Part shown: positions 22,682-35,771 of the stretch, in pieces | Layout of the letters: every line of letters begins with the position of its first letter | Position numbering within the stretch: position 1 is the stretch's first letter | Origin: Candidatus Sumerlaeota bacterium | GTDB taxonomy: Bacteria > Sumerlaeota > Sumerlaeia > SLMS01 | Assembly: GCA_007132505.1 (NCBI GenBank) | Contig: SLOM01000300.1 | Location: 1 to 35,818, forward strand | Length of the DNA: 35,818 bases | Reading direction: 5' to 3' | Position numbers and translations under genes: made by a program | Notes under the pieces: generated by a model | What the model was told of the DNA's origin: nothing | What the model saw: only the letters and a program-made list of their open reading frames with translations | Database searches by the model: none

Positions 22682-23569
22682 ATGCCGACATCTCCAGACA
22701 GTTTTTTCGATTCCGTACCGGGATTTACGGATTGCAGGGAATTCGCCGTGGGAGGGGTACGGCTCGGTGGCGCAAGCCCACTTTGCCTGATCGCCGGACC
22801 ATGCGTCATGGAATCCCGCTCCCACGTGCTTGAGACGGCCGAAGGTCTGGCGGAAATCGCGCACAAGCTCGGCGTCCCGTTTGTCTTCAAGGCTTCCTAT
22901 GACAAGGCGAACCGCACGTCGGTCCGTGCCTTCCGCGGGCCGGGACTGAAGGAGGGCCTGGAAATCCTGGCGGAGGTGCGCGAGCGCACCGGGCTCCCCG
23001 TGACCAGCGACGTGCACACCGAGGCCGAGGCCGGCCCAGCAGGCGAGGTGCTCGACATTCTCCAAGTGCCGGCTTTTCTCTGCAGGCAGACGGATTTGCT
23101 GAAGGCGGTGGCGGAGACCGGCAAGCCCGTCAACGTCAAGAAAGGCCAGTTCCTCGCTCCGTGGGACATGCGCAACGTGGCCGGGAAACTGCGCGCTTTC
23201 GGGTGCGAGGATATTCTGCTCACGGATCGCGGCGTGTCCTTTGGCTACGGGGCACTTGTGTCGGACATGCGGGCGCTCTCCACCATGCGGGAGCTGACCG
23301 GCCTGCCCGTGTGCTTCGACGCCACGCACAGCGTGCAGCAGCCCGGCGCGCTGGGCGAGGCAACCGGCGGGCAGCGTCAATACGTGCCGCTGCTCGCGCG
23401 TGCCGCTTGCGCCGCCGGAATCAACGCCCTCTTCCTCGAAACGCATGACAAGCCGGACGAGGCAAAGAGCGACGGGCCGAACATGGTGCCTCTCGGCCGG
23501 CTCGAATCGGTCCTTCGTGGTTGCCTCGCGGCGGACGCGGCAGTGCGGGCCTGGCATGCCGGCGGGTGA
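22682..23569 (+). CDS. kdsA: 3-deoxy-8-phosphooctulonate (Kdo-8-P) synthase
   Basis: KdsA joins phosphoenolpyruvate and arabinose 5-phosphate to give Kdo-8-phosphate, the first committed step of the LPS inner-core sugar, so the cell most likely makes LPS. The 295-residue product has AGPCVMES (Cys41), KASYDKANRTS, FDATHSVQQPG and LETHDKPDEAKSDGPNM. The Cys, with the later His, Glu and Asp, is the metal ligand set of the metal-dependent class (Aquifex type); the E. coli type has Asn at the Cys position. GGAG lies five bases before the ATG. A short non-family N-terminal leader of about 20 residues precedes the core. truA overlaps its end. Confidence 0.95.
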   Translation: MPTSPDSFFDSVPGFTDCREFAVGGVRLGGASPLCLIAGPCVMESRSHVLETAEGLAEIAHKLGVPFVFKASYDKANRTSVRAFRGPGLKEGLEILAEVRERTGLPVTSDVHTEAEAGPAGEVLDILQVPAFLCRQTDLLKAVAETGKPVNVKKGQFLAPWDMRNVAGKLRAFGCEDILLTDRGVSFGYGALVSDMRALSTMRELTGLPVCFDATHSVQQPGALGEATGGQRQYVPLLARAACAAGINALFLETHDKPDEAKSDGPNMVPLGRLESVLRGCLAADAAVRAWHAGG

Positions 23570-24389
23570 CGACACACCGGACCCCGGCCTGAGCAGCCCG
23601 CTGCAACGCATCGTGGTGCTGACGGAATACGACGGCACACGTTACCACGGCCTCCAGCGTCAGGGGCACACCGAGCTGACCATCCAGCACGAATTCGAAA
23701 GCGCTGTGGCCCGGCTCGGCGTGGAGCAGCCGGACTTCGTGGCGTCCGGGCGCACCGACGCAGGGGTTCACGCCCGCGGGCAGGTCCTGGCGCTGAACGT
23801 TCCCTCCCGGCAGCCGGTGCGGCGTTACCTCCGCACGCTCAACGCGCTCCTTCCTGAAGACATCCGCGTGCGTGCCGTGGCCGAATGTCCGGATGGCTTC
23901 AGTCCCCGGTTCGATGCGCTGCGCAGGACGTATCTTTACCGTGTTTGCGCTCTTGAGCCCGTGCCGCCGCTGGCCAGGCACTTCGTTGCCTTCGCAAAGA
24001 CAGCGCTGGACGAAGGGCGCACCGTCGCGGCGGCCTCCCTCTTCGTTGGGCGGCGCGAGATGGCGGCATGGCGTTCCTCCATCTGTCAGGCCACCCGGAC
24101 CTTTCTCACCATTGACGAGTGCACCGCCATCGCGCCTCACACGGACCAAAGAACCGGTGAGGCCGTCCCGTGGTGGACGTTCCGGATCGCGGCCCGGAGC
24201 TTCCTCCACCATCAGGTGCGCCTTATGGCTGGTGCCTTCGTGGCGGCGGGAAGTGGCCGGCTGCCATTGGACGAGCTGCGAACGGCATTGGTGGAGGGAG
24301 GCCGCCCGAAATCCGCCGCCATGATGCCGGCGCGCGGCCTGTGCCTTGCGAAGGTTGAGTTCGATCCCGAACGGGACCCTTTCCGTTGA
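23556..24389 (+). CDS. truA: tRNA pseudouridine synthase A
   Basis: TruA makes pseudouridine at positions 38-40 in the tRNA anticodon stem. Start ATG 23556 gives 277 residues and lies inside the kdsA end (14-bp overlap), so translation may be coupled. The catalytic Asp is D68 in SGRTDAGVHARGQV, preceded by EYDGTRYHGLQRQ and followed by ALRRTYLYRV and the C-terminal FLHHQVRLMAGAF block. The N-terminal about 15 residues (MPAGDDTPDPGLSSPLQ) are not conserved. The frame is open upstream in kdsA, but that reading is a shadow of kdsA. Confidence 0.93.
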   Translation: MPAGDDTPDPGLSSPLQRIVVLTEYDGTRYHGLQRQGHTELTIQHEFESAVARLGVEQPDFVASGRTDAGVHARGQVLALNVPSRQPVRRYLRTLNALLPEDIRVRAVAECPDGFSPRFDALRRTYLYRVCALEPVPPLARHFVAFAKTALDEGRTVAAASLFVGRREMAAWRSSICQATRTFLTIDECTAIAPHTDQRTGEAVPWWTFRIAARSFLHHQVRLMAGAFVAAGSGRLPLDELRTALVEGGRPKSAAMMPARGLCLAKVEFDPERDPFR

Positions 24390-24450
24390 CCTGTGCGCCC
24401 AAGGGCCCAACTCTCCGCCATGAATGACAGATCAGCCAAGATGGATCAAA

Positions 24451-25248
24451 ATGAATAGAATCAGCGCTCTCTGCCTCCCCTTCGCCCTCCCCTTCGCCCT
24501 CGTTTTCGCCAGCCTTGCCGCAGCGGAACCGGCAGCAGAGGTGGAGCGGCTGCGCGCCGAAGTCATCTCCGTCTATCCGCACGACACAGACGCGTTCACG
24601 CAGGGCCTGCTTTACCACCAAGGCTATTTCTACGAAAGCACAGGCCGCTACAGGCACTCGGCGCTCCGCCGCGTGGACCCGGAAACGGGTGAAGTGATAA
24701 TGGAGGTCGAGCTGGAGGACCGCTATTTCGGCGAGGGGCTGGCGCTCGTGGACGACCGGTTGATCCAGCTCACTTGGCACGAGGGCACCGCCTTCGTGTA
24801 TGACCGCGAGACCTTCGATCCGCTCGACGAGTTCTCCTACGAGGGCGAGGGTTGGGGACTGACCTACGACGGCAGGCGTCTCATCATGACCGATGGGTCG
24901 CACCACCTGCAGTTCCGGGACCCGGATACGTTCAGCCTGGTGGACGTCGTACCTGTCTATCTGGAGGGCCGGCCGGTGCGCCGGCTGAACGAGCTGCTCT
25001 ACGCGGGTGGCCACGTCTACGCCAACGTCTTCATGCAGGATTATCTGGTCCGGATTGATCCGCGTAGCGGGCGGGTGACAGCCGTCATCGAGGCGGGGCA
25101 CCTCATCCCGCGCGAGGAGCGCCAAGGCATGGACGTGCTGAACGGCGTGGCATGGGACCCCGAAACAGGGGAATTTTTCCTCACGGGCAAGCTCTGGCCG
25201 AAGATGTTTCGCGTGCGTTTTGTGCCGGTGGATGACGGGACGGACTGA
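24451..25248 (+). CDS. Glutaminyl-peptide cyclotransferase (glutamine cyclotransferase)
   Basis: The product turns N-terminal glutamine of peptides into pyroglutamate. It is exported: a Sec signal peptide covers about the first 25 residues, with cleavage near AAAEP. The five-bladed propeller fold is supported by FTQGLLYHQGYFYESTGRY near the start, by RLNELLYAGGHVYANV, and by LNGVAWDPETGEFFLTGKLWPKMFRV at the C-terminus, all typical of the bacterial plant-type QC family. The frame also opens at ATG 24424 (nine residues more), and no strong ribosome site distinguishes them; I prefer 24451, where the signal peptide starts. Confidence 0.88.
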   Translation: MNRISALCLPFALPFALVFASLAAAEPAAEVERLRAEVISVYPHDTDAFTQGLLYHQGYFYESTGRYRHSALRRVDPETGEVIMEVELEDRYFGEGLALVDDRLIQLTWHEGTAFVYDRETFDPLDEFSYEGEGWGLTYDGRRLIMTDGSHHLQFRDPDTFSLVDVVPVYLEGRPVRRLNELLYAGGHVYANVFMQDYLVRIDPRSGRVTAVIEAGHLIPREERQGMDVLNGVAWDPETGEFFLTGKLWPKMFRVRFVPVDDGTD

Positions 25249-25414
25249 GCACGAGGATGGTGCGCGGCTTCCCGCCCGGTGCCCTCAGGGCGGAACCGGA
25301 GATCCACCGGCGCGGCACATCCAGCAACATTGCTGACAAACGCCCTGTCTTCGGGCAGCTATTCAACGTAACGGCCCAAGGGGCCGCCTTGCTTCAGGGG
25401 GCGCGGCGGATCGC

Positions 25415-26860
25415 ATGAGACTCTACCGGCAGACAGTCCGTCTCGCGATTCCGGCCGTTATCGAGAACCTTTCGACTTCCATTATCTTCCTCGTGGACGC
25501 GTTGATGGTGGCGACGCTGGGTCCGGCCGCCCTCGCCGCGGTGGGGCTCGTCGGCGTCATCATGTGGCGCCTGCGCACGATGGGCGGGATCCTGCAGATC
25601 GGCACCACCGCCATGGTGGCCCGGCGCTGGGGAGAGAACAACACGAAGGCCGCCTGCGTGCTGTTCGCCCACTCGGCACTGCTGGGGCTGCTGATTGGTC
25701 TGGGGTGCCTGTTTCTGCACCCGATGGCGGGGGGAATCTTCTCCCTCCTGAACGCAGAGGGCGACGTCCTTGCGTTCTCCGTCCTTTACTTTCAGGTCGT
25801 TATTCTGGCGTTCCCGCTCCGGCTGGCCAGCACCAACATGGGCGCGGCGATCCGGGCCGCGGGGGACACCCGCACGCCGATGGTCACCACCGTGGCCGCG
25901 AACCTCATCAATGTGTTCCTGAACTATGCGCTCATTTTCGGGAAGTTTGGCTTCCCGGAGCTGGGGCTGTTCGGCGCGGCGATTGCCACGGCCATCGCCT
26001 TCACGGCGGAATTCCTGATTTTCCTGGCGATGGGACTGAAAGGCATCCGCCCGAAGCGCCTCTTCGCTGTCCCGAGGGTGGACTTCCCCGCACCGGACGA
26101 CGAGGAGGTCGAGGTCACCTCCGCGCCGGTACCGATCCACCCGGGGCACGAGGATCGTCAGGATGTCCTGCGGCTCGATCCGGCGGGTTTCCGCCTGCGG
26201 GTCAGAGGCTCAACCGGGACGCTTTTCCGCATCTCGCATCCGAGTTTCTGGGAGGAGGCGGGCGTCTCGCTCGGCTTTCTGGTCTTCACGGCCATGCTGG
26301 CGCTCTTCGGCGAGGAGGCGCTGGCGGCGCACTCCGCGGTCATCCGGATCGAGAGCTTCTCCTTCATGGCTGGCTTCGGCATCTCCATCGCCACAGCCAC
26401 GCTTGTGGGGCAGGCACTCGGCGCGGGGGAACTCCGGGCGGCCCGCCGGACCTTTGCGATCTGCCTCACCCTGAGCACCCTGTTCATGGGGAGCCTTGGC
26501 ATCGTATTCTCCCTTTTCCCGGAGTGGTTCGTGGGCTGGTTCGTGCACGAGGACGCCGCAGGCACCTTCCTGCCACTGGCGGCCATGCTGTTCCTCCTCG
26601 GGGCCTTGCAGCAGCCGTTCATCGGCTCGGCGATGGTGCTTAGCGGCGGCCTGCGGGGAGCGGGGCATACCATTGCTCCCTTTGTGGCGCAGCTTTTCGG
26701 GACGATCGGAGCGCGGCTCGGGGCGGGTTATCTTCTCGGCTTTGTTTTCGGCATGGGGATCGAGGGGCTCTACATCGCGACGGTGTTGGACTGGGTGCTG
26801 CGGACGATCATCCTTGGAGGGCTGGTGATGATGGGCCGATGGGAGCGTGCCCGAGCTTGA
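25415..26860 (+). CDS. MATE family efflux transporter with a long central linker
   Basis: This 481-residue inner-membrane protein probably exports drugs or metabolites with a Na+ or H+ gradient. About twelve membrane helices fall in two halves. The first half has the typical MATE start (TVRLAIPAVIENLSTSIIFLVDALMV) and GAAIRAAGDTRTPM, and the second half has IATATLVGQALGAG and SGGLRGAG, which are the paired MATE repeats. Between helices 6 and 7 lies a polar, acidic segment (about residues 220-265, APDDEEVEV and onward) that is longer than in most MATE proteins. It is followed after 182 bp by the propeller-bearing permease. Substrate unknown. Confidence 0.9.
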   Translation: MRLYRQTVRLAIPAVIENLSTSIIFLVDALMVATLGPAALAAVGLVGVIMWRLRTMGGILQIGTTAMVARRWGENNTKAACVLFAHSALLGLLIGLGCLFLHPMAGGIFSLLNAEGDVLAFSVLYFQVVILAFPLRLASTNMGAAIRAAGDTRTPMVTTVAANLINVFLNYALIFGKFGFPELGLFGAAIATAIAFTAEFLIFLAMGLKGIRPKRLFAVPRVDFPAPDDEEVEVTSAPVPIHPGHEDRQDVLRLDPAGFRLRVRGSTGTLFRISHPSFWEEAGVSLGFLVFTAMLALFGEEALAAHSAVIRIESFSFMAGFGISIATATLVGQALGAGELRAARRTFAICLTLSTLFMGSLGIVFSLFPEWFVGWFVHEDAAGTFLPLAAMLFLLGALQQPFIGSAMVLSGGLRGAGHTIAPFVAQLFGTIGARLGAGYLLGFVFGMGIEGLYIATVLDWVLRTIILGGLVMMGRWERARA

Positions 26861-27042
26861 GGCGGCCGGGCGAGGGTGGTTCGGGCTTGCCCACGGAATT
26901 ACTTCAAGGTTGAAGTTTCTCCCGCCGGGAGTGCCAGCCGGAACGGTCCACGCCCCCGGCCGGCGGGCTTCAGCACCCGCCGCCAAGAGCCGGCTTCCCG
27001 CCGGTATCCCAGCGCCTTCAACCGGTCCCCTCAGGAGGCTTC

Positions 27043-29559
27043 ATGGACGCCAATCTCATCGTCGGCCTTGTGATTCTGGTCATCTTCTTCAGCGCTGCGG
27101 CGTTGATGTTCACCCGCACGCTGCCCGCGTTGCTGGTGCTTCCCGTCATGGCGCTGGCAATCGCCGGCTCGACCGCGCTGATCACCGGCGAACTCTCCCT
27201 GCACGACATCAACCAGGGCGTGATCGCTTCCGGCGCCTTCCGCCTGCACGAGGCGATCATCGTCGCCATGTTTGGCGGCATCATCTCCTTCATGATGCAG
27301 AAGTCGGGCGTTGCGGAAAGCCTGGTGAAGAACGCGGCGGAGCTGATCGGCGACAATCCGCTTGGTGTCTCCATTTTCGCTCTGGCGCTCGTGGCCATGC
27401 TGTTTACCAGCATCGGCGGCCTTGGTGCGATCATCATGGTGGCGATGGTGGTGCTGCCGATGTTGGCCACGGTGGGCGTTCCGCCGGTCGCGGCCGGAGG
27501 GATCATGCTCTTCGGCATCAGCGTCGGCGGCATCCTGAATGCTGCGACCTGGGTGCTCTATGCGAGCATCGTGAACATCCCGGTGGAGGAAGTCCGCCGG
27601 TTCGCCCTTATGGTGTTCTTCCTGAGCGCCATGGCCGGGATCACCTTCATCGTGGTGGAGCTCTGGCGGGGCGGTGTGCTGCGGTCCGCCAGGACAATGA
27701 TCACCACCTTCACCATCGTGGGAGTCCTGACCGCCCTGGTGGCTGGTGGAGTGATTGCCTATGCCCTCATCTGGGGGTGGAACGGAGCGGGGGCAACCGG
27801 CGCGGAAGAGGTGGCCGCGGAGGACGTGGCTCCCGCGATACCCCGCTGGCTTGTCTATTCGGTTCGTGGGGTCTTTGGGGCCTTCTTCGCCGTTGTTCTG
27901 GCGATAGCCACCTACGACCACCTGAAAAAGGTGGAGCACTGGCGCCAGCAGGTCGTCGAGGTGAAGTGGTACGCGTACCTGATTCCCATCCTGCCGCTGA
28001 TCCTGATCATCGTCTTCAACATGCCGATCCTGGCCGCATTCTTCTTTGGCTTGCTGTACGCCGTCTATACGACGTTGCGGCCCGGCACCGTGAACATGAC
28101 GGTGCAATGCATGATAAACGGCAGCTCGGCGGTCCTGCCGGCTGCGCTGCTGATGCTCGGCATCGGCATCCTGCTCAACTCAATCCTCGGTCCCCCGGGA
28201 TGGTCGGAGGCAAACGCCGCGGCGCGGGTCATCAAGATAGACATGGCCACATCCGAGCGCGTCGGCAGCCTGCGCCTGCCCACCGGCGAGCTGCCCGCCG
28301 GGACGATCGTCTCCCCGGACGGGCAGTATGCCTACATCGGAACCGAAACCGTTCCCGGCCGGGTCGTTCGCATGGATCTCGAAACCTTCGCCGTGGAGGA
28401 CGAGATTGTCCTCCTCGCCGGCGAGGACAACATCTCCGCCGCCGCAATCAGCCCGGACGGCAGCCACGCCTACTTCGCGACCGAAACCGTCCCCGGACGC
28501 ATCGTGAAGGTGGACCTCGAGCAGTTCGAGCGCGTGGACGCCATAACGCTCCGGCTCGGGGAAAACAACCTCCGGACGGCCCACGTCTCCCCGGACGGAC
28601 AAACCGCCTGGTTCGCCACGGACACCTTCCCGGGCCGCATCGTGCAGGTGGACCTCGAGAACTTCGAGCGCACCGCCTCCCTGTCCCTCGGCGAGGAAGA
28701 AGGCGAGATCCGCGCGGGACTGCTCTCCCAGGACGGCACCACCGCCTACTACGCCACGGGAACATCCCCCGGCCGTATCGTGAAGGTTGATCTCGAGAAC
28801 TTCACCCGCGCCGATGCCATCACCCTCGAAGAAGGTGAGGACCGGCTGCTGAGCGCGGTGATGAGCCCCGATGGCACCGCCGCCTACTTCGGAACGGACA
28901 CAGACCCCGGCCTGATCGTGAAGGTGGACCTTGTGGCTTTCGAGCGCGCTGATGTGCTCGCCCTCGAGGAAGGTCAGGCCAGTCTCGCCAGCGCGGTCAT
29001 GGCGCCGGACGGATCGGCCGCATGGTTCGGAACCGCCACGGCCCCCGGTCTGGTCGTGAAGGTGGATCTCGCGGAGTTTGAGCGCGCCGAGACCACGCTC
29101 CTCCGCTCGGGAGAAGATGCCCTGCTCAGCGCGATGACTGACCTGGACGGCCAGTACGCCTACTTCGGCACGGAGATCGGGCTCCCGGACTGGCCGGTCA
29201 ATGCCTCCATCGAACCCGTCATCAATGCGATCGTGCCCGGCAACCGGCTGCTCTACGTCATCGTCTTCGTCGTGTTGGCTCCGCTGGCGCTCTACCGTGG
29301 CCCGCTGAACATGTGGGGGCTCGGCAGCGGTGTGGCCGCCATCCTGATCCTTGGCGACGCCATGACCGGCGCCGCCGTGATGGCAATGATTCTCACCGTC
29401 GGCATGATCCAGGGCATCTGCGACCCGACGAACACGCACAACGTCTGGTTGGCCAATGAGTTGCGGGTGGACGTACAGACACTCATGTGGCGGACCCTGC
29501 CCTACGTCTGGGGGATGGTGATCATCGGCCTGACCGTCTCCGCATTCATCAACTTCTGA
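27043..29559 (+). CDS. Permease of the IT/CitMHS-like type with an inserted seven-blade propeller
   Basis: The 838-residue protein has about ten membrane segments (residues 5-380), a soluble block of seven propeller repeats (395-712), and then about three more membrane segments (about 730-838). The C-terminal ICDPTNTHN motif and the GPLNMWGLGSG turn resemble uptake carriers of the ion-transporter superfamily (citrate/C4-dicarboxylate type), but no substrate can be read. CAGGAGG lies four bases before the ATG. A HyuA-like gene starts 15 bp downstream, so the pair may import and then hydrolyse a lactam or hydantoin. The propeller interrupts the loop between helices 10 and 11. The side of the membrane it faces is not settled; periplasmic is my guess. 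Confidence 0.85.
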   Translation: MDANLIVGLVILVIFFSAAALMFTRTLPALLVLPVMALAIAGSTALITGELSLHDINQGVIASGAFRLHEAIIVAMFGGIISFMMQKSGVAESLVKNAAELIGDNPLGVSIFALALVAMLFTSIGGLGAIIMVAMVVLPMLATVGVPPVAAGGIMLFGISVGGILNAATWVLYASIVNIPVEEVRRFALMVFFLSAMAGITFIVVELWRGGVLRSARTMITTFTIVGVLTALVAGGVIAYALIWGWNGAGATGAEEVAAEDVAPAIPRWLVYSVRGVFGAFFAVVLAIATYDHLKKVEHWRQQVVEVKWYAYLIPILPLILIIVFNMPILAAFFFGLLYAVYTTLRPGTVNMTVQCMINGSSAVLPAALLMLGIGILLNSILGPPGWSEANAAARVIKIDMATSERVGSLRLPTGELPAGTIVSPDGQYAYIGTETVPGRVVRMDLETFAVEDEIVLLAGEDNISAAAISPDGSHAYFATETVPGRIVKVDLEQFERVDAITLRLGENNLRTAHVSPDGQTAWFATDTFPGRIVQVDLENFERTASLSLGEEEGEIRAGLLSQDGTTAYYATGTSPGRIVKVDLENFTRADAITLEEGEDRLLSAVMSPDGTAAYFGTDTDPGLIVKVDLVAFERADVLALEEGQASLASAVMAPDGSAAWFGTATAPGLVVKVDLAEFERAETTLLRSGEDALLSAMTDLDGQYAYFGTEIGLPDWPVNASIEPVINAIVPGNRLLYVIVFVVLAPLALYRGPLNMWGLGSGVAAILILGDAMTGAAVMAMILTVGMIQGICDPTNTHNVWLANELRVDVQTLMWRTLPYVWGMVIIGLTVSAFINF
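28225..29178 (+). repeat. Seven tandem 135-138 bp in-frame repeats encoding propeller blades
   Basis: Each unit of 45 or 46 residues follows the pattern PG-[RL]-[IV]-V-K-V-D-L-x2-F, then G-E, then S-P-D-G-x2-A-Y-F-G-T-x-T-x-P-G. Unit starts are 28225, 28360, 28498, 28636, 28774, 28912 and 29050. Units 2-6 are exactly 46 residues. Seven such blades make a closed propeller. The pattern is of the YVTN/SMP-30-like surface type, normally found in secreted proteins, not in permeases. Confidence 0.9.
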
Positions 29560-29574
29560 GGACACCGCGCGATC

Positions 29575-31746
29575 ATGGAAGAAAACACGGACAAACGGCG
29601 GATCAAGATCGGTATAGACGTGGGCGGCACGTTCACCCACGCCGTGGCGGTGGACCTGGCGACGATGGACCTTGCCGGCAAGGCGGTCGTCCCGACCACG
29701 CACACGGCGAAGGAGGGCGTGGCAGCGGGCGTCGTGCAGTCCATGAAGAAGCTGCTGGAGGAGGCACGCGTCCAGCCGGATGAGGTCGTCCTCATCGCCC
29801 ACAGCACGACGCAGGCGACCAACGCGCTCCTGGAGGGCGACGTGGCCAGGGTCGGCATTGTCGCCATGGCGACCGGTGCCGGCGGCATCCGGGCCCGCGG
29901 GGAGGCACGCACAGGCGACATCGAGCTCTCCGAGGGCAAGTTCCTCCGTACCGGATTCCGGTATATAGACACCGAGGAGTTCAGCGACGAGAAGGTCCGC
30001 CAGGCCATTGATGAACTCCGGCGCGAGGGCTGCGAAGCCATTGTCTCCACCGAATCCTTCGGGGTGGACAACCCCGAACGCGAGCAGCGCGTCGTGGACA
30101 TGGCCATCGAGATGGGCCTGCCTGCCTGCGCAAGCAGCGCACTCTCCCAGCTATATGGACTCCGCGTCCGCACGCGCACGGCCGTCATCAATGCCAGCAT
30201 GCTCCCGAAAATGCTGGAGACGGCAAACATGACCGAGCAGGCAGTGCGCGAGAGCGGCATTGACGTGGCCCTGATGGTCATGCGCTCGGACGGCGGCATC
30301 ATGGACATCGAGGCCATGCGCAGGCGTCCCATCCTCACGATGCTCAGCGGACCTGCTGCCGGTGTGGCGGCGGCCCTCATGTACGAGCGTATCTCCGATG
30401 GCTGCATGCTGGAGGTCGGTGGCACCTCCACCGACATCTGCGTCATCAAGAACGGCCGGCCCATCATCACCAACGGCGAGGTGGGCGGGCACCGGCTCTT
30501 CGTGCGGACGCTGGACGTGCGGACAGTCGGCATCGCCGGCGGCTCCGTTCCCCGTGTCCGCAACGGCAAGCTGATAGACGTCGGCCCCCGGAGTGCCCAC
30601 ATCGCGGGTCTTGGCTACGATGCCTTCACCGAGGGCGTCGGTGACAAGGAAATGGAAGCAGCGAACGTCCAGCCGAAACCGGAGGACCCGGAGGACTATC
30701 TGGGCCTGCGCGTGGACGGCGCGGAAAAGCCCTCCCTGGCCATCACGCCAACCGGGGCCTCCAACATGCTTGGGCTGGTTAGCGGTTACGGAAAAGGCAA
30801 TATGGATTCCATCCGCCGGTGCTTCGACGCCGTCGGGAAGATGACCGGGTATAAAGCCGAAGACCTTGCGGATCGGATTCTGGACATCTCCACGAAGAAG
30901 GTCATCCCCGTCGTGAAGGCAATGCTCACCGAGCACAAGCTCTGGGGGCGGAAGATCACCTTCGTAGGCGGTGGTGGCGGAGCCGAAGCGCTCGTTCCCT
31001 ACACCGCACAGAAGATGAAGCTCGAACACCGCATCGCCCGGAACACGGAGGTGATCTCGGCGATCGGTGTGGCGCTCGGCATCATCCAGGACACGGTGGA
31101 GCGCACGATCCTGAACCCGGGTGAGTCGGACCTCGTGTCCATCCGGCGCGAGGCGGTTGAATCCGTCCAGCGCATGGGTGCCGACCCTGCCTCCATACAG
31201 GTCACGGTGGAGGTTGACCGGCAGACCAAACGCGTCACCGCCACCGCGCAGGGAACGCCCGAACTGCGGACGCGCTCGCTCGGCGGCGCGCTTCCCCCTG
31301 CGGAAAAGCTGCGCGACACTGCTGCCGACGTCATGGGAGCCGATCCCGCACGGGTCCGCGAGGTCAACGAGAAGGACTCCAGCTGGCTTCGCGTCTTCCA
31401 GGCGGAAGTGGACAAGAAGATCCTTCTTGGGCTACTCACTACCATCCGCACGCCGGTCGCCATCGTGGACAAGGAGGGCATCGTGCGCCTCCAGCTCCCT
31501 GATGCCCGCGTGGATTACGTCTCGCCGTCAGAGGCTGACCAAGCCATTCAGAAGATCATCGAGCAGTTCACCACCTATGGTGACGGCGGGGAGGTCCTCC
31601 CTGACATCTTCGTCGTCAAGCCGGGTCAGATCGCGGACCTGACCGGCTTGGTGGAAGCCGCGCAGATGATCAGTGTCGCCCGCGTCGAGATGCAGGCGCT
31701 CACGAGCGACGAGAAGGTTGCGCTTGTGAGCTGCCGCAAGGGATGA
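29575..31746 (+). CDS. Hydantoinase/oxoprolinase family protein (HyuA-like)
   Basis: The family hydrolyses 5-oxoproline, hydantoins or related lactams with ATP. The 723-residue product has the actin-like ATP site IGIDVGGTFT (12-21), the HydA_N block AHSTTQATNALLEG, and LEVGGTSTDICVIKNG of the core domain, plus a Gly-rich FVGGGGGAEAL. No partner HyuB gene is adjacent. The C-terminal about 200 residues extend past the usual HyuA core and contain a VPVVKAM-like helix and mixed beta segments of unknown role. It lies 15 bp after the permease gene, so co-expression is likely. The substrate is unknown; acetone carboxylase or N-methylhydantoinase subunits are alternatives within the family. Confidence 0.88.
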   Translation: MEENTDKRRIKIGIDVGGTFTHAVAVDLATMDLAGKAVVPTTHTAKEGVAAGVVQSMKKLLEEARVQPDEVVLIAHSTTQATNALLEGDVARVGIVAMATGAGGIRARGEARTGDIELSEGKFLRTGFRYIDTEEFSDEKVRQAIDELRREGCEAIVSTESFGVDNPEREQRVVDMAIEMGLPACASSALSQLYGLRVRTRTAVINASMLPKMLETANMTEQAVRESGIDVALMVMRSDGGIMDIEAMRRRPILTMLSGPAAGVAAALMYERISDGCMLEVGGTSTDICVIKNGRPIITNGEVGGHRLFVRTLDVRTVGIAGGSVPRVRNGKLIDVGPRSAHIAGLGYDAFTEGVGDKEMEAANVQPKPEDPEDYLGLRVDGAEKPSLAITPTGASNMLGLVSGYGKGNMDSIRRCFDAVGKMTGYKAEDLADRILDISTKKVIPVVKAMLTEHKLWGRKITFVGGGGGAEALVPYTAQKMKLEHRIARNTEVISAIGVALGIIQDTVERTILNPGESDLVSIRREAVESVQRMGADPASIQVTVEVDRQTKRVTATAQGTPELRTRSLGGALPPAEKLRDTAADVMGADPARVREVNEKDSSWLRVFQAEVDKKILLGLLTTIRTPVAIVDKEGIVRLQLPDARVDYVSPSEADQAIQKIIEQFTTYGDGGEVLPDIFVVKPGQIADLTGLVEAAQMISVARVEMQALTSDEKVALVSCRKG

Positions 31747-31821
31747 TCCTTTCACTCCGGCGGAGCCGGGTGCCCGCCCGCATTCGCATGACGCCGGTCA
31801 CCTTTGTCGGAGCAGAAAACA

Positions 31822-32676
31822 TTGTCCCGATTGACGAGGCTCGCCGCGGCCCTTGCAGCCTGTTGCTGCACGATACTCGCCACACCCGGCAATGGAGAAA
31901 CGATGAGCGACAAATCGCAGATACCCTGGATCGTCTTCGCCGACAGGGCGGAAGTCCGCGCTGCACCCGTACAGGACAGTGACTCCGTCCGCACAGTCTC
32001 CCATGGTGGCATGGTCTTCGGCACCCAGTTGGAAATCCACCCGTCAACGAACGAGGAGTGGCTCAAGCTCGACCCGGAGTGGTACGGCGGTGGCGGAATG
32101 TATGTCTCCCGCTCCACGGTTCACCGGGTGCACCCCTCCAACCAAGTGGAGGGCGACCTCCCGATCGGCTCAGAGAAGGTGGACCGATGGTGGGGGCTGC
32201 CCCTCGACTATGAGCCCTCGGACCTTGTGTACATACCCGTGAAGTATGCGCTCAGAGGCCGCGAAGATTACCAGCTTCGCCGCGAGGTGGCCGAGGCGCT
32301 GGCGGTAATGCTCGACGCGGCGCGGGAGGACGGAATCGACATCCGCGTGACCTCCGCCTACCGCTCCGGTCCCCGTCAGCGGACCATCTATCTGCGCAAC
32401 ATCTCACGCAACGGTCCCGGCCAGCGGGCCAGTGCTCCTCCCGGCCACAGCGAACACCAGCTCGGCACAACCGTGGACCTGACAGACCCGGAGGGACGGC
32501 ACTCCTTCAGCCAGGCGTTCGACAAGACACCACAGGGCAAGTGGCTCGAAAAGAACGCAAATCGCTTCGGCTTCAGGCGCTCCTACTACCCCGACAACGT
32601 CGAGGAAACCGGCTACATTTCCGAGCCCTGGCACTGGCGCTACCACGGCAAACCGGAAGACAGCGAGAAGGAATAG
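31822..32676 (+). CDS. D-alanyl-D-alanine carboxypeptidase (VanY/LdcB-like), exported
   Basis: VanY/LdcB-type enzymes trim the D-Ala or stem peptide ends of peptidoglycan. The product has a Sec-type leader, an SH3-like domain (about 35-105), and a C-terminal peptidase. Blocks are SAYRSGPRQRTIY, SEHQLGTTVDLTD (zinc His and Asp) and EPWHWRYHG (catalytic Glu and zinc His). I chose TTG 31822 because GGAG lies nine bases before it and the hydrophobic leader LAAALAACCCTILA follows. ATG 31903 also has GGAG upstream but would remove the leader. It converges on the DUF4432 gene, with only 9 bp between stops. Confidence 0.8.
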   Translation: MSRLTRLAAALAACCCTILATPGNGETMSDKSQIPWIVFADRAEVRAAPVQDSDSVRTVSHGGMVFGTQLEIHPSTNEEWLKLDPEWYGGGGMYVSRSTVHRVHPSNQVEGDLPIGSEKVDRWWGLPLDYEPSDLVYIPVKYALRGREDYQLRREVAEALAVMLDAAREDGIDIRVTSAYRSGPRQRTIYLRNISRNGPGQRASAPPGHSEHQLGTTVDLTDPEGRHSFSQAFDKTPQGKWLEKNANRFGFRRSYYPDNVEETGYISEPWHWRYHGKPEDSEKE

Positions 32677-32685
32677 CAGTCTCTG

Positions 32686-33759
32686 TCAGAAGGAGTTCAA
32701 GGCTTCCACCGTGATGGCCAGGCGCATGGAGCGGGACTCGCCAGGCTCAAGTATCTGGAGCCGGCCCTGTCTGCGTTCCTCAGCCCGCCCCTCCACATGG
32801 CAGTTGGCCGGCTCGACACCGAGAACATGCGCCCCCGCGCCGGGCATCTTCCACTGCACCAGCCGGGGGAGCGTGTCCGCAGTCCACGAGAGGCCCAGCC
32901 GCACCGGGGCGTTGTGCCCCGAGCCGCCAAAGGGGAACGCCGGATTATTCACGGAAATCCTGGCGCTCGGGCGTGCCCACGTGCGGGACACGGCTGTCTC
33001 CAGCTCCTCATGATAATAGACACGCTCGGTGTATCGTGCGTCGGGCCGTTGCCATTCCCCGTATCCCTCCACCGGAACTTCCCGGTCGCGTGCAACAACC
33101 TGCTTGGACGGGAACGTAATCTGCGCCTCCGGCGACACGAGCGGGAACCCCAGGTTGAAGTGGTAGAGAATCATCAGCGGGGAGGGATGGAAACCGATGT
33201 TCTCCACGAGGTCCTCGATGTCCAACCGGTTGGTCCCGGCATGGCAGCGGTAGGTACGCGTGAGGCGCAGGTTCTCGCCGAAGAGCCGGCATTCCTCCAT
33301 CACACCGCGCACGCGTATGACGTACTCGTCCTCGTCCCATTCGGTCTGGACGCTCACTTCGCGGGCGGGCGTGTGATGAATGCGCCCGTGGAGGCCGGGC
33401 TGCTCGCCCTCGTCCTCGCAGGGAGAGCCCACCTGGCGCAGACCGCAGGTCATGAGGAGGCCCCCTGCGGCGGTCCGGAGCCAGCCCAGGCCGGACGGGT
33501 CGAAGTGCGCCGGGTGCACGTCGCCGGCGGGGGAGAGCCAGCAGAGCGGAGTCCCGAGGAACTCCGCCAGGCCGATATCCATGCCCCGCGAGGGGTGTAT
33601 CCACAGGGAAAGCCCCGCGCCCGTGCGGACATGAACAGCCTCGGAACCGGCACCGGGGCCTTCCGCAAGCAGAACGCGCCGGGCCCCGGCAACCTGGTCC
33701 ACCCGGCCCGTATGTGCCTCCAGCTCGCGCCGTGTCCATTCACCACCGAAAAGCCGCAT
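32686..33759 (-). CDS. Aldose-1-epimerase-like protein (DUF4432)
   Basis: This 357-residue cytosolic protein resembles the DUF4432 aldose-1-epimerase branch by its galactose-mutarotase-type beta-sandwich pattern, including WIHPSRGMDIG, the LHGRIHHTPA block and FHPSPLMILYHFNLGFPL. Such proteins open or flip sugar anomers, which would feed an isomerase. GAGG precedes the start by six bases. It is the last gene of the kinase, lyxose isomerase and epimerase run, with 8 bp between it and the isomerase, which supports a sugar role. Confidence 0.85.
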   Translation of the reverse strand: MRLFGGEWTRRELEAHTGRVDQVAGARRVLLAEGPGAGSEAVHVRTGAGLSLWIHPSRGMDIGLAEFLGTPLCWLSPAGDVHPAHFDPSGLGWLRTAAGGLLMTCGLRQVGSPCEDEGEQPGLHGRIHHTPAREVSVQTEWDEDEYVIRVRGVMEECRLFGENLRLTRTYRCHAGTNRLDIEDLVENIGFHPSPLMILYHFNLGFPLVSPEAQITFPSKQVVARDREVPVEGYGEWQRPDARYTERVYYHEELETAVSRTWARPSARISVNNPAFPFGGSGHNAPVRLGLSWTADTLPRLVQWKMPGAGAHVLGVEPANCHVEGRAEERRQGRLQILEPGESRSMRLAITVEALNSF

Positions 33760-33767
33760 CGTGCGCC

Positions 33768-35508
<1,741 letters not shown>

Positions 35509-35771
35509 GGGGAGACCCCTTCCGATGGGCTGCTGGAAGCCGGATGTAACCGGATGCATGGTGAGTCAATTTTGGAGCGCCCCCTGTGTCCAGCCAAAAC
35601 TGCTCCGGGCGGCCCCCCCCAGCCCGGGCGGAAGGTGGGTTTCCGCTTTACCTCCCTGAATCGCTGGCAGCACGGTTCCTCCCTTCCGGACGGAAAAGGG
35701 GGCGCAACTCAGTAGAATGTAGACAGTGTGGGGCGGTTCGGTCTTGAATGGGGGCATTCCCTTTCCGGAGG
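35509..35771. other. Intergenic region upstream of pfkB and a possible rightward gene
   Basis: No gene is supported here. On the minus strand TTGACT (35567-35572) could be a -35 box for the sugar operon, but no good -10 follows at normal spacing. On the plus strand TAGAAT (35713-35718, five of six consensus) could be a -10 element for the gene at 35781. A CCGGGC/GCCCGG stem with a C-rich loop lies at 35605-35627 and lacks a T-tract on the plus strand. Confidence 0.3.

Follow-up and report, generated by a model that had tools for sequence, protein, structure and literature searches.

Soluble domains inserted in membrane carriers are of a known kind. Within the ion-transporter (IT) superfamily, for instance, carriers of the CitMHS/DASS type with an RCK_C (TrkA_C) insert have been described, and this insert is cytosolic and regulatory. 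Among TRAP carriers, TM7 to TM9a of SiaQM constitute the second scaffold repeat, and the hairpin HPout enters from the periplasm (PMC9971032). Residue R292 of SiaM, located at the end of arm II, touches the substrate-binding protein SiaP in a model, and the R292A substitution in SiaM lowers transport by ~87% (PMC9971032).

Here we describe a permease gene whose coding sequence is interrupted by a beta-propeller. The gene is located in a DNA stretch of 35,818 nucleotides (hereafter, the window) that covers positions 1 to 35,818 of contig SLOM01000300.1 of assembly GCA_007132505.1 from a Candidatus Sumerlaeota bacterium. The author of the first-pass annotation knew of no described carrier with a propeller in this loop, and our literature searches likewise revealed no described carrier with an inserted propeller, a result that does not prove that none exists. 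In the literature searched, there appears to be no precedent for an entire propeller at the predicted periplasmic arm junction of a carrier from the IT superfamily.

The interrupted permease gene and its relatives

The frame first reported at 27043-29559 is indeed open, encodes 838 amino acids and is preceded by a ribosome-binding site, AGGAGG, at 27033-27038. The features of this gene and of the gene that follows it are listed below.

27043..29559, forward strand: open reading frame of the propeller-bearing permease, 838 residues; AGGAGG upstream, orthologue in L029
27043..28188, forward strand: N-terminal permease part, residues 1-382, by hydropathy and DctM profile match
28189..28224, forward strand: entry linker GPPGWSEANAA, aligned to GPSGWSDAHGG of uninterrupted relatives; spacing table
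28225..29190, forward strand: inserted seven-blade YVTN-type beta-propeller, residues 395-716, by repeats, AlphaFold2, Foldseek and phmmer to 1l0q
28225..28359, forward strand: repeat 1 (45 residues), of which the first two strands close the last blade, by repeat delimitation and AlphaFold2
28360..28497, forward strand: repeat 2 (46 residues)
28498..28635, forward strand: repeat 3 (46 residues)
28636..28773, forward strand: repeat 4 (46 residues)
28774..28911, forward strand: repeat 5 (46 residues)
28912..29049, forward strand: repeat 6 (46 residues)
29050..29190, forward strand: repeat 7 (47 residues) with the exit linker EIGLPD at its end, by repeat delimitation and AlphaFold2
29191..29556, forward strand: C-terminal permease part, residues 717-838, with a WPV arm-II-like segment and the PLALYRGPLN and DPTNTHNVW motifs
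29575..31746, forward strand: HyuA-like gene (hydantoinase/oxoprolinase A family), PF01968 E 7e-52

The repeats had initially been placed at 28225-29178 with lengths of 45-46 residues. Their number, seven, and their start were confirmed, but the true end lies 12 bases further, at 29190; units 2-6 are exactly 46 residues long, as first described, but the full set consists of one unit of 45, five of 46 and one of 47 residues. Hydropathy is consistent with the approximate count of ten membrane segments before the propeller and three after it. A TM9a-like helix (residues 362-381) closes the N-terminal permease part.

The propeller is inserted at the same permease residue in a congeneric MAG (G001; SLMS01000266.1, L029). 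The junctions read GPVGWSAANAS-propeller-EWPVNAAIEP in the congener and GPPGWSEANAA-propeller-DWPVNASIEP in the window. Identity between the two proteins reaches 85% in the N-terminal permease part, which is 31-53% identical to relatives without the insert, and 95% in the C-terminal part, where the PLALYRGPLN and DPTNTHNVW motifs are invariant in 12 relatives; the propellers are only 52% identical. That two genes were joined by an assembly or sequencing error, an outcome considered in the first-pass annotation and made conceivable by the fragmentation of the source MAG (303 contigs), is ruled out for practical purposes by this separate congeneric MAG, which has the same junction with so divergent a propeller, and GC3 is uniform over the junction (0.85, 0.85 and 0.89). 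The propeller is a true in-frame insertion in the permease of one Sumerlaeota genus.

Uninterrupted relatives, which the first-pass annotation had proposed to look for, do exist. Genomes of the same family read straight across the site, e.g. G002 (GPSGWSDAHGGQVWPVIAGIQP) and G005 (GPVGWEEAHGGNKWPVLAAIGP), and the permease of G006 has no space for a propeller there. In the two congeners, 377 and 379 residues separate the GIGIL and LYRGPLN motifs, versus 44-57 residues in 24 other sequences, so the insertion is by no means common to every relative. Wherever else the site could be read, in relatives from Sumerlaeota or from other phyla, the insertion was absent. Two further phyla that were searched yielded open frames of 236-620 amino acids (fragments included), none with the insertion. 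Propeller gain was counted once on a tree of 35 permeases computed without the insert columns. Scans of viral contigs with the permease and with the propeller gave no matches.

Fold, source and divergence of the propeller

The mean BLOSUM62 score at a lag of 46 residues equals 2.28, versus a maximum of -0.34 for lags 30-59 in 1000 shuffles. AlphaFold2, supplied with the window sequence and its orthologue, modelled the isolated repeat region as a closed propeller with 28 strands, i.e. seven blades of four (pLDDT 88.4, pTM 0.87), which agrees with the seven blades first annotated; the pLDDT of the full 838-residue protein, modelled from a three-row alignment, is 43. When compared to PDB by Foldseek, the repeat-region model matches seven-blade WD40/G-beta propellers (TM ~0.75). 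The best phmmer match in PDB is the YVTN surface-layer beta-propeller 1l0q of Methanosarcina mazei (E 2.3e-8), which has the same repeat order, A-B-C-D with the SPDG turn, as the window propeller. The closing blade in the AlphaFold2 model is made up of the two N-terminal and the two C-terminal strands; strand C of this blade is the entry point of the chain into the ring, and its exit follows strand B of the same blade. Since the chain ends are adjacent in one closing blade, the carrier chain is broken at one point only.

Altogether, 28 further stretches of the window genome match the propeller, with a best identity of 56%. Proteins of this family begin with a signal-peptide-like segment, most of them comprise at least seven repeats, and many end in a dockerin-like tail, GDxNxDGCVxFxDFxxLLENWG, which falls below the threshold of the Pfam dockerin model. 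As was expected of such repeats in the first-pass annotation, the family is otherwise secreted in these genomes. The two genomes of the genus encode many members of it, G005 encodes few, and none was detected in six other genomes searched. Six secreted propellers (L031, L032, L034, L083, L087 and L088) have the same 46-residue repeat, mostly in at least seven units, and are up to 51-56% identical to the window propeller; unlike the window protein, they have a signal-peptide-like start and a dockerin-like tail and are without a membrane domain. The simplest account would be the recruitment of one secreted propeller into the carrier.

The secreted propeller expansion is genus-specific, and some of its genes are arranged in tandem arrays. 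Between 7 and 18 propeller repeats together with the dockerin-like tail were found in L031 (G000:C240), L032 (C167), L033 (C241), L034 (C110), and L083, L087 and L090 (G001). Only one weak match to cohesin was found in each of the two genomes of the genus.

The dN values between the window and its congener are 0.087 for the N-terminal permease part, 0.026 for the C-terminal part and 0.395 for the propeller. Two secreted orthologous propeller proteins from the same genomes are 87% identical. Differences at four-fold sites amount to 0.70 in the propeller (28225-29190 versus L029:7183-8154) compared with ~0.50 in the flanks (p 0.0005); synonymous values are likewise high for the downstream VanY. 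Some inserted blades score equally against secreted blades and against the orthologous blade. The raised synonymous change makes a partial exchange of blades between the inserted propeller and its paralogues possible. The same synonymous divergence and blade scores could be explained by two independent insertions, or by whole replacement with another paralogue, but these are less likely, because the junction is identical in both congeners and the same-position similarity of the whole propeller exceeds that obtained by blade permutation (6/20000). This blade-specific signal is mostly missing in paralogous secreted pairs of ~50% identity. The propeller dN/dS of ~0.25, with dS near saturation, points to purifying selection, and seven blades are retained in both species.

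Blade-specific conservation of loops differs between the two faces of the propeller. Top-face loops (D-A and B-C) show 0.54 identity for same-position blades versus 0.34 for permuted blades (p 0.00025), as compared with 0.46 versus 0.44 for bottom-face loops (p 0.34). This test, made on one orthologous pair, gives p 0.001 for the difference between faces; the result is unchanged when the loop limits are moved by one residue, and p is 0.015 for blades 2-6 alone, without blades 1 and 7. Strands also exhibit blade-specific identity (0.55 versus 0.45, p 0.0006). Both permease linkers emerge where the closing blade has its B-C loop, a position that belongs to the conserved face.

Carrier family, membrane topology and neighbouring genes

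The permease has no convincing match in Pfam or NCBIfam and no PDB relative by sequence. When its profile was compared by hhalign, DctM scored highest (probability 95, E 3e-8, collinear over 423 columns), followed by GntP (83) and CitMHS (75), versus 0.1 for the unrelated MATE control. Profile similarity to these three families along both repeats places the permease in the IT superfamily. Judged by this remote match, it represents an undescribed family of IT-superfamily (putatively elevator-type) carriers, with TRAP DctM as the nearest relative. The family was found in 36 of 386 sampled genomes, and its conserved motifs are GGLxA, PLxLYRGPLN and DPTxTxNVW. By sequence and gene content the carrier is not a TRAP member: Pfam DctM matches neither the window protein nor the relatives scanned, and no gene for a substrate-binding protein (P) or Q subunit, as in DctPQM, occurs among the neighbours scanned (22682-35559).

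Relatives in G005, G008 and G010 carry another, non-propeller insert of ~150 residues in a different loop, near residue 250, that is predicted to be periplasmic (L030:3797-4272 and the corresponding loops of L014 and L015). The G008 and G010 inserts are homologous with 31% identity, and the G005 insert has no detectable relation to them. The carrier family seems to take up extracytoplasmic domains repeatedly.

The charged permease loops 23-29, 206-220 and 291-313 are net positive. An apparent cleavable signal peptide precedes the first membrane segment in several class relatives, which suggests that the N-terminus is outside. The positive loops, together with segment counting, place the loop 382-734 outside as well, and the propeller is accordingly predicted to be periplasmic. 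According to the DctM alignment, the insertion lies directly after the TM9a-equivalent helix and directly before the arm-II helix leading to HPout, a positional match from a remote profile alignment with a reported confidence of ~0.7 in that stretch. Given the modelled contact between R292 and SiaP, a propeller at this scaffold/arm-II junction would sit at the docking place for the substrate donor of a TRAP carrier. The first-pass annotation had put the propeller at the mouth of the carrier, and this proved apt: the loop is predicted to face the periplasm, and its counterpart in TRAP DctM is the arm junction on the mouth side.

The HyuA-like gene begins 15 bases downstream of the propeller-bearing permease. 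Such a gene lies next to the permease in many relatives, and this operon arrangement is kept across several phyla (among the genomes with the adjacency are G002, G005, G008, G010, G013, G083, G117, G298, G358, G366 and G382). HyuB (PF02538), the usual partner of HyuA, had no match in the two genomes of the genus, nor in 11 of 13 genomes tested, so ordinary hydantoin or oxoproline hydrolysis is not to be assumed. The carrier probably takes up a substrate of the neighbouring HyuA-like enzyme. Pfam searches of the neighbours (22682-35559) identified KDO8P synthase-like, Glu_cyclase_2, MATE, HyuA-like, VanY, DUF4432 and PfkB proteins and one without a match. The glutamine cyclotransferase (Glu_cyclase_2) gene is located at 24424-25248, two genes upstream of the permease, a synteny seen only within the genus; its type of product (pyroglutamyl ends) could connect to the oxoprolinase-like neighbour.

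Possible roles of the propeller and comparison with known systems

We propose that the protein is an elevator-type, DctM-related carrier of the IT superfamily that bears, in one Sumerlaeota genus, a complete propeller from a lineage-expanded secreted family. The alignment and the charge rule place the insertion point on the periplasmic side, after the second scaffold repeat and ahead of the arm-II helix to the hairpin HPout. The conserved face is the one from which the two linkers depart, so it is expected to lie on the carrier mouth, where the propeller may act as a tethered cap or operator that shapes or gates the vestibule. It may also pass substrate on to the moving domain, in broad analogy to the free-standing substrate-binding protein of TRAP systems. 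To a built-in lid or operator above the carrier mouth, with the orientation taken from linker positions alone, we assign a probability of about 0.4. The suggestion of the first-pass annotation that the propeller senses or captures the substrate is one possible reading; a conserved face turned to the membrane would suit a cap or an interface no less well than it would suit capture. More tentatively, a covalent operator at the docking place of the TRAP substrate-binding protein might make a one-component carrier self-contained for both capture and transport, a step that we regard as possible but doubtful. Relatives that have no propeller evidently function without it.

Three other roles are less well supported than that of a cap or operator. 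A somewhat unlikely one is an outward-facing docking module, which would bind an envelope or matrix partner (e.g. other secreted propellers) and tether or place the carrier with transport untouched. Propellers are common interaction scaffolds, the relatives in the genome are secreted, many with the dockerin-like tail, and the genome has a cohesin-like match; however, the face that would look outward is devoid of blade-specific loop conservation, and its bottom loops have drifted from the family pattern (0.46 versus ~0.5-0.67 in most paralogous pairs). It is unlikely that the propeller is a tolerated passenger, i.e. a self-closing domain in a permissive loop that is kept since it folds harmlessly. 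Both its dN/dS and the seven blades kept in the two species speak against this, and its one-faced conservation exceeds the needs of folding alone, even though ends that meet in one blade make an insertion cheap and the propeller, at 52% identity, is far less conserved than the permease (85-95%) or the secreted orthologous propellers (87%). Quite improbable is a periplasmic enzyme domain (lactonase- or amidase-like) that modifies the substrate before uptake and is coupled to the HyuA-like enzyme inside, since no cofactor or catalytic site was found in the propeller, and its weak profile matches to propeller enzymes or subunits (L-NosZ, hydrazine synthase beta and quinohemoprotein amine dehydrogenase beta) fall far short of the curated thresholds and can be put down to the repeat that these proteins have in common.

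A single clean cassette distinguishes the carriers that have the propeller from those that lack it. This amounts to a natural domain-insertion experiment, in which what an extracytoplasmic domain contributes to an elevator carrier becomes testable by removal. The analysis also marks out an unnamed carrier family, HyuA-like-linked in several phyla, with predicted periplasmic loops that seem to have taken up foreign domains repeatedly. Should the propeller be an operator, it would illustrate how one-component carriers can acquire TRAP-like substrate-delivery modules in evolution.

Comparison with the described systems sets the window protein apart in several respects. The propeller 1l0q is a secreted surface protein, whereas the window propeller is found inside a permease. 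CitMHS/DASS-type carriers with RCK_C share with the window protein the interruption of an IT-superfamily carrier by a soluble domain; however, the domain in the window is a propeller and is predicted to be periplasmic, in contrast to the cytosolic RCK_C insert. With TRAP DctM/SiaM, the window permease has in common the collinear profile, and its insertion site corresponds to the scaffold II/arm II junction that is the SiaP docking place in SiaM, but it has extra membrane segments between the repeats in addition to the inserted propeller. In its mode of action, the carrier may perhaps resemble a TRAP carrier together with the donor protein of the latter.
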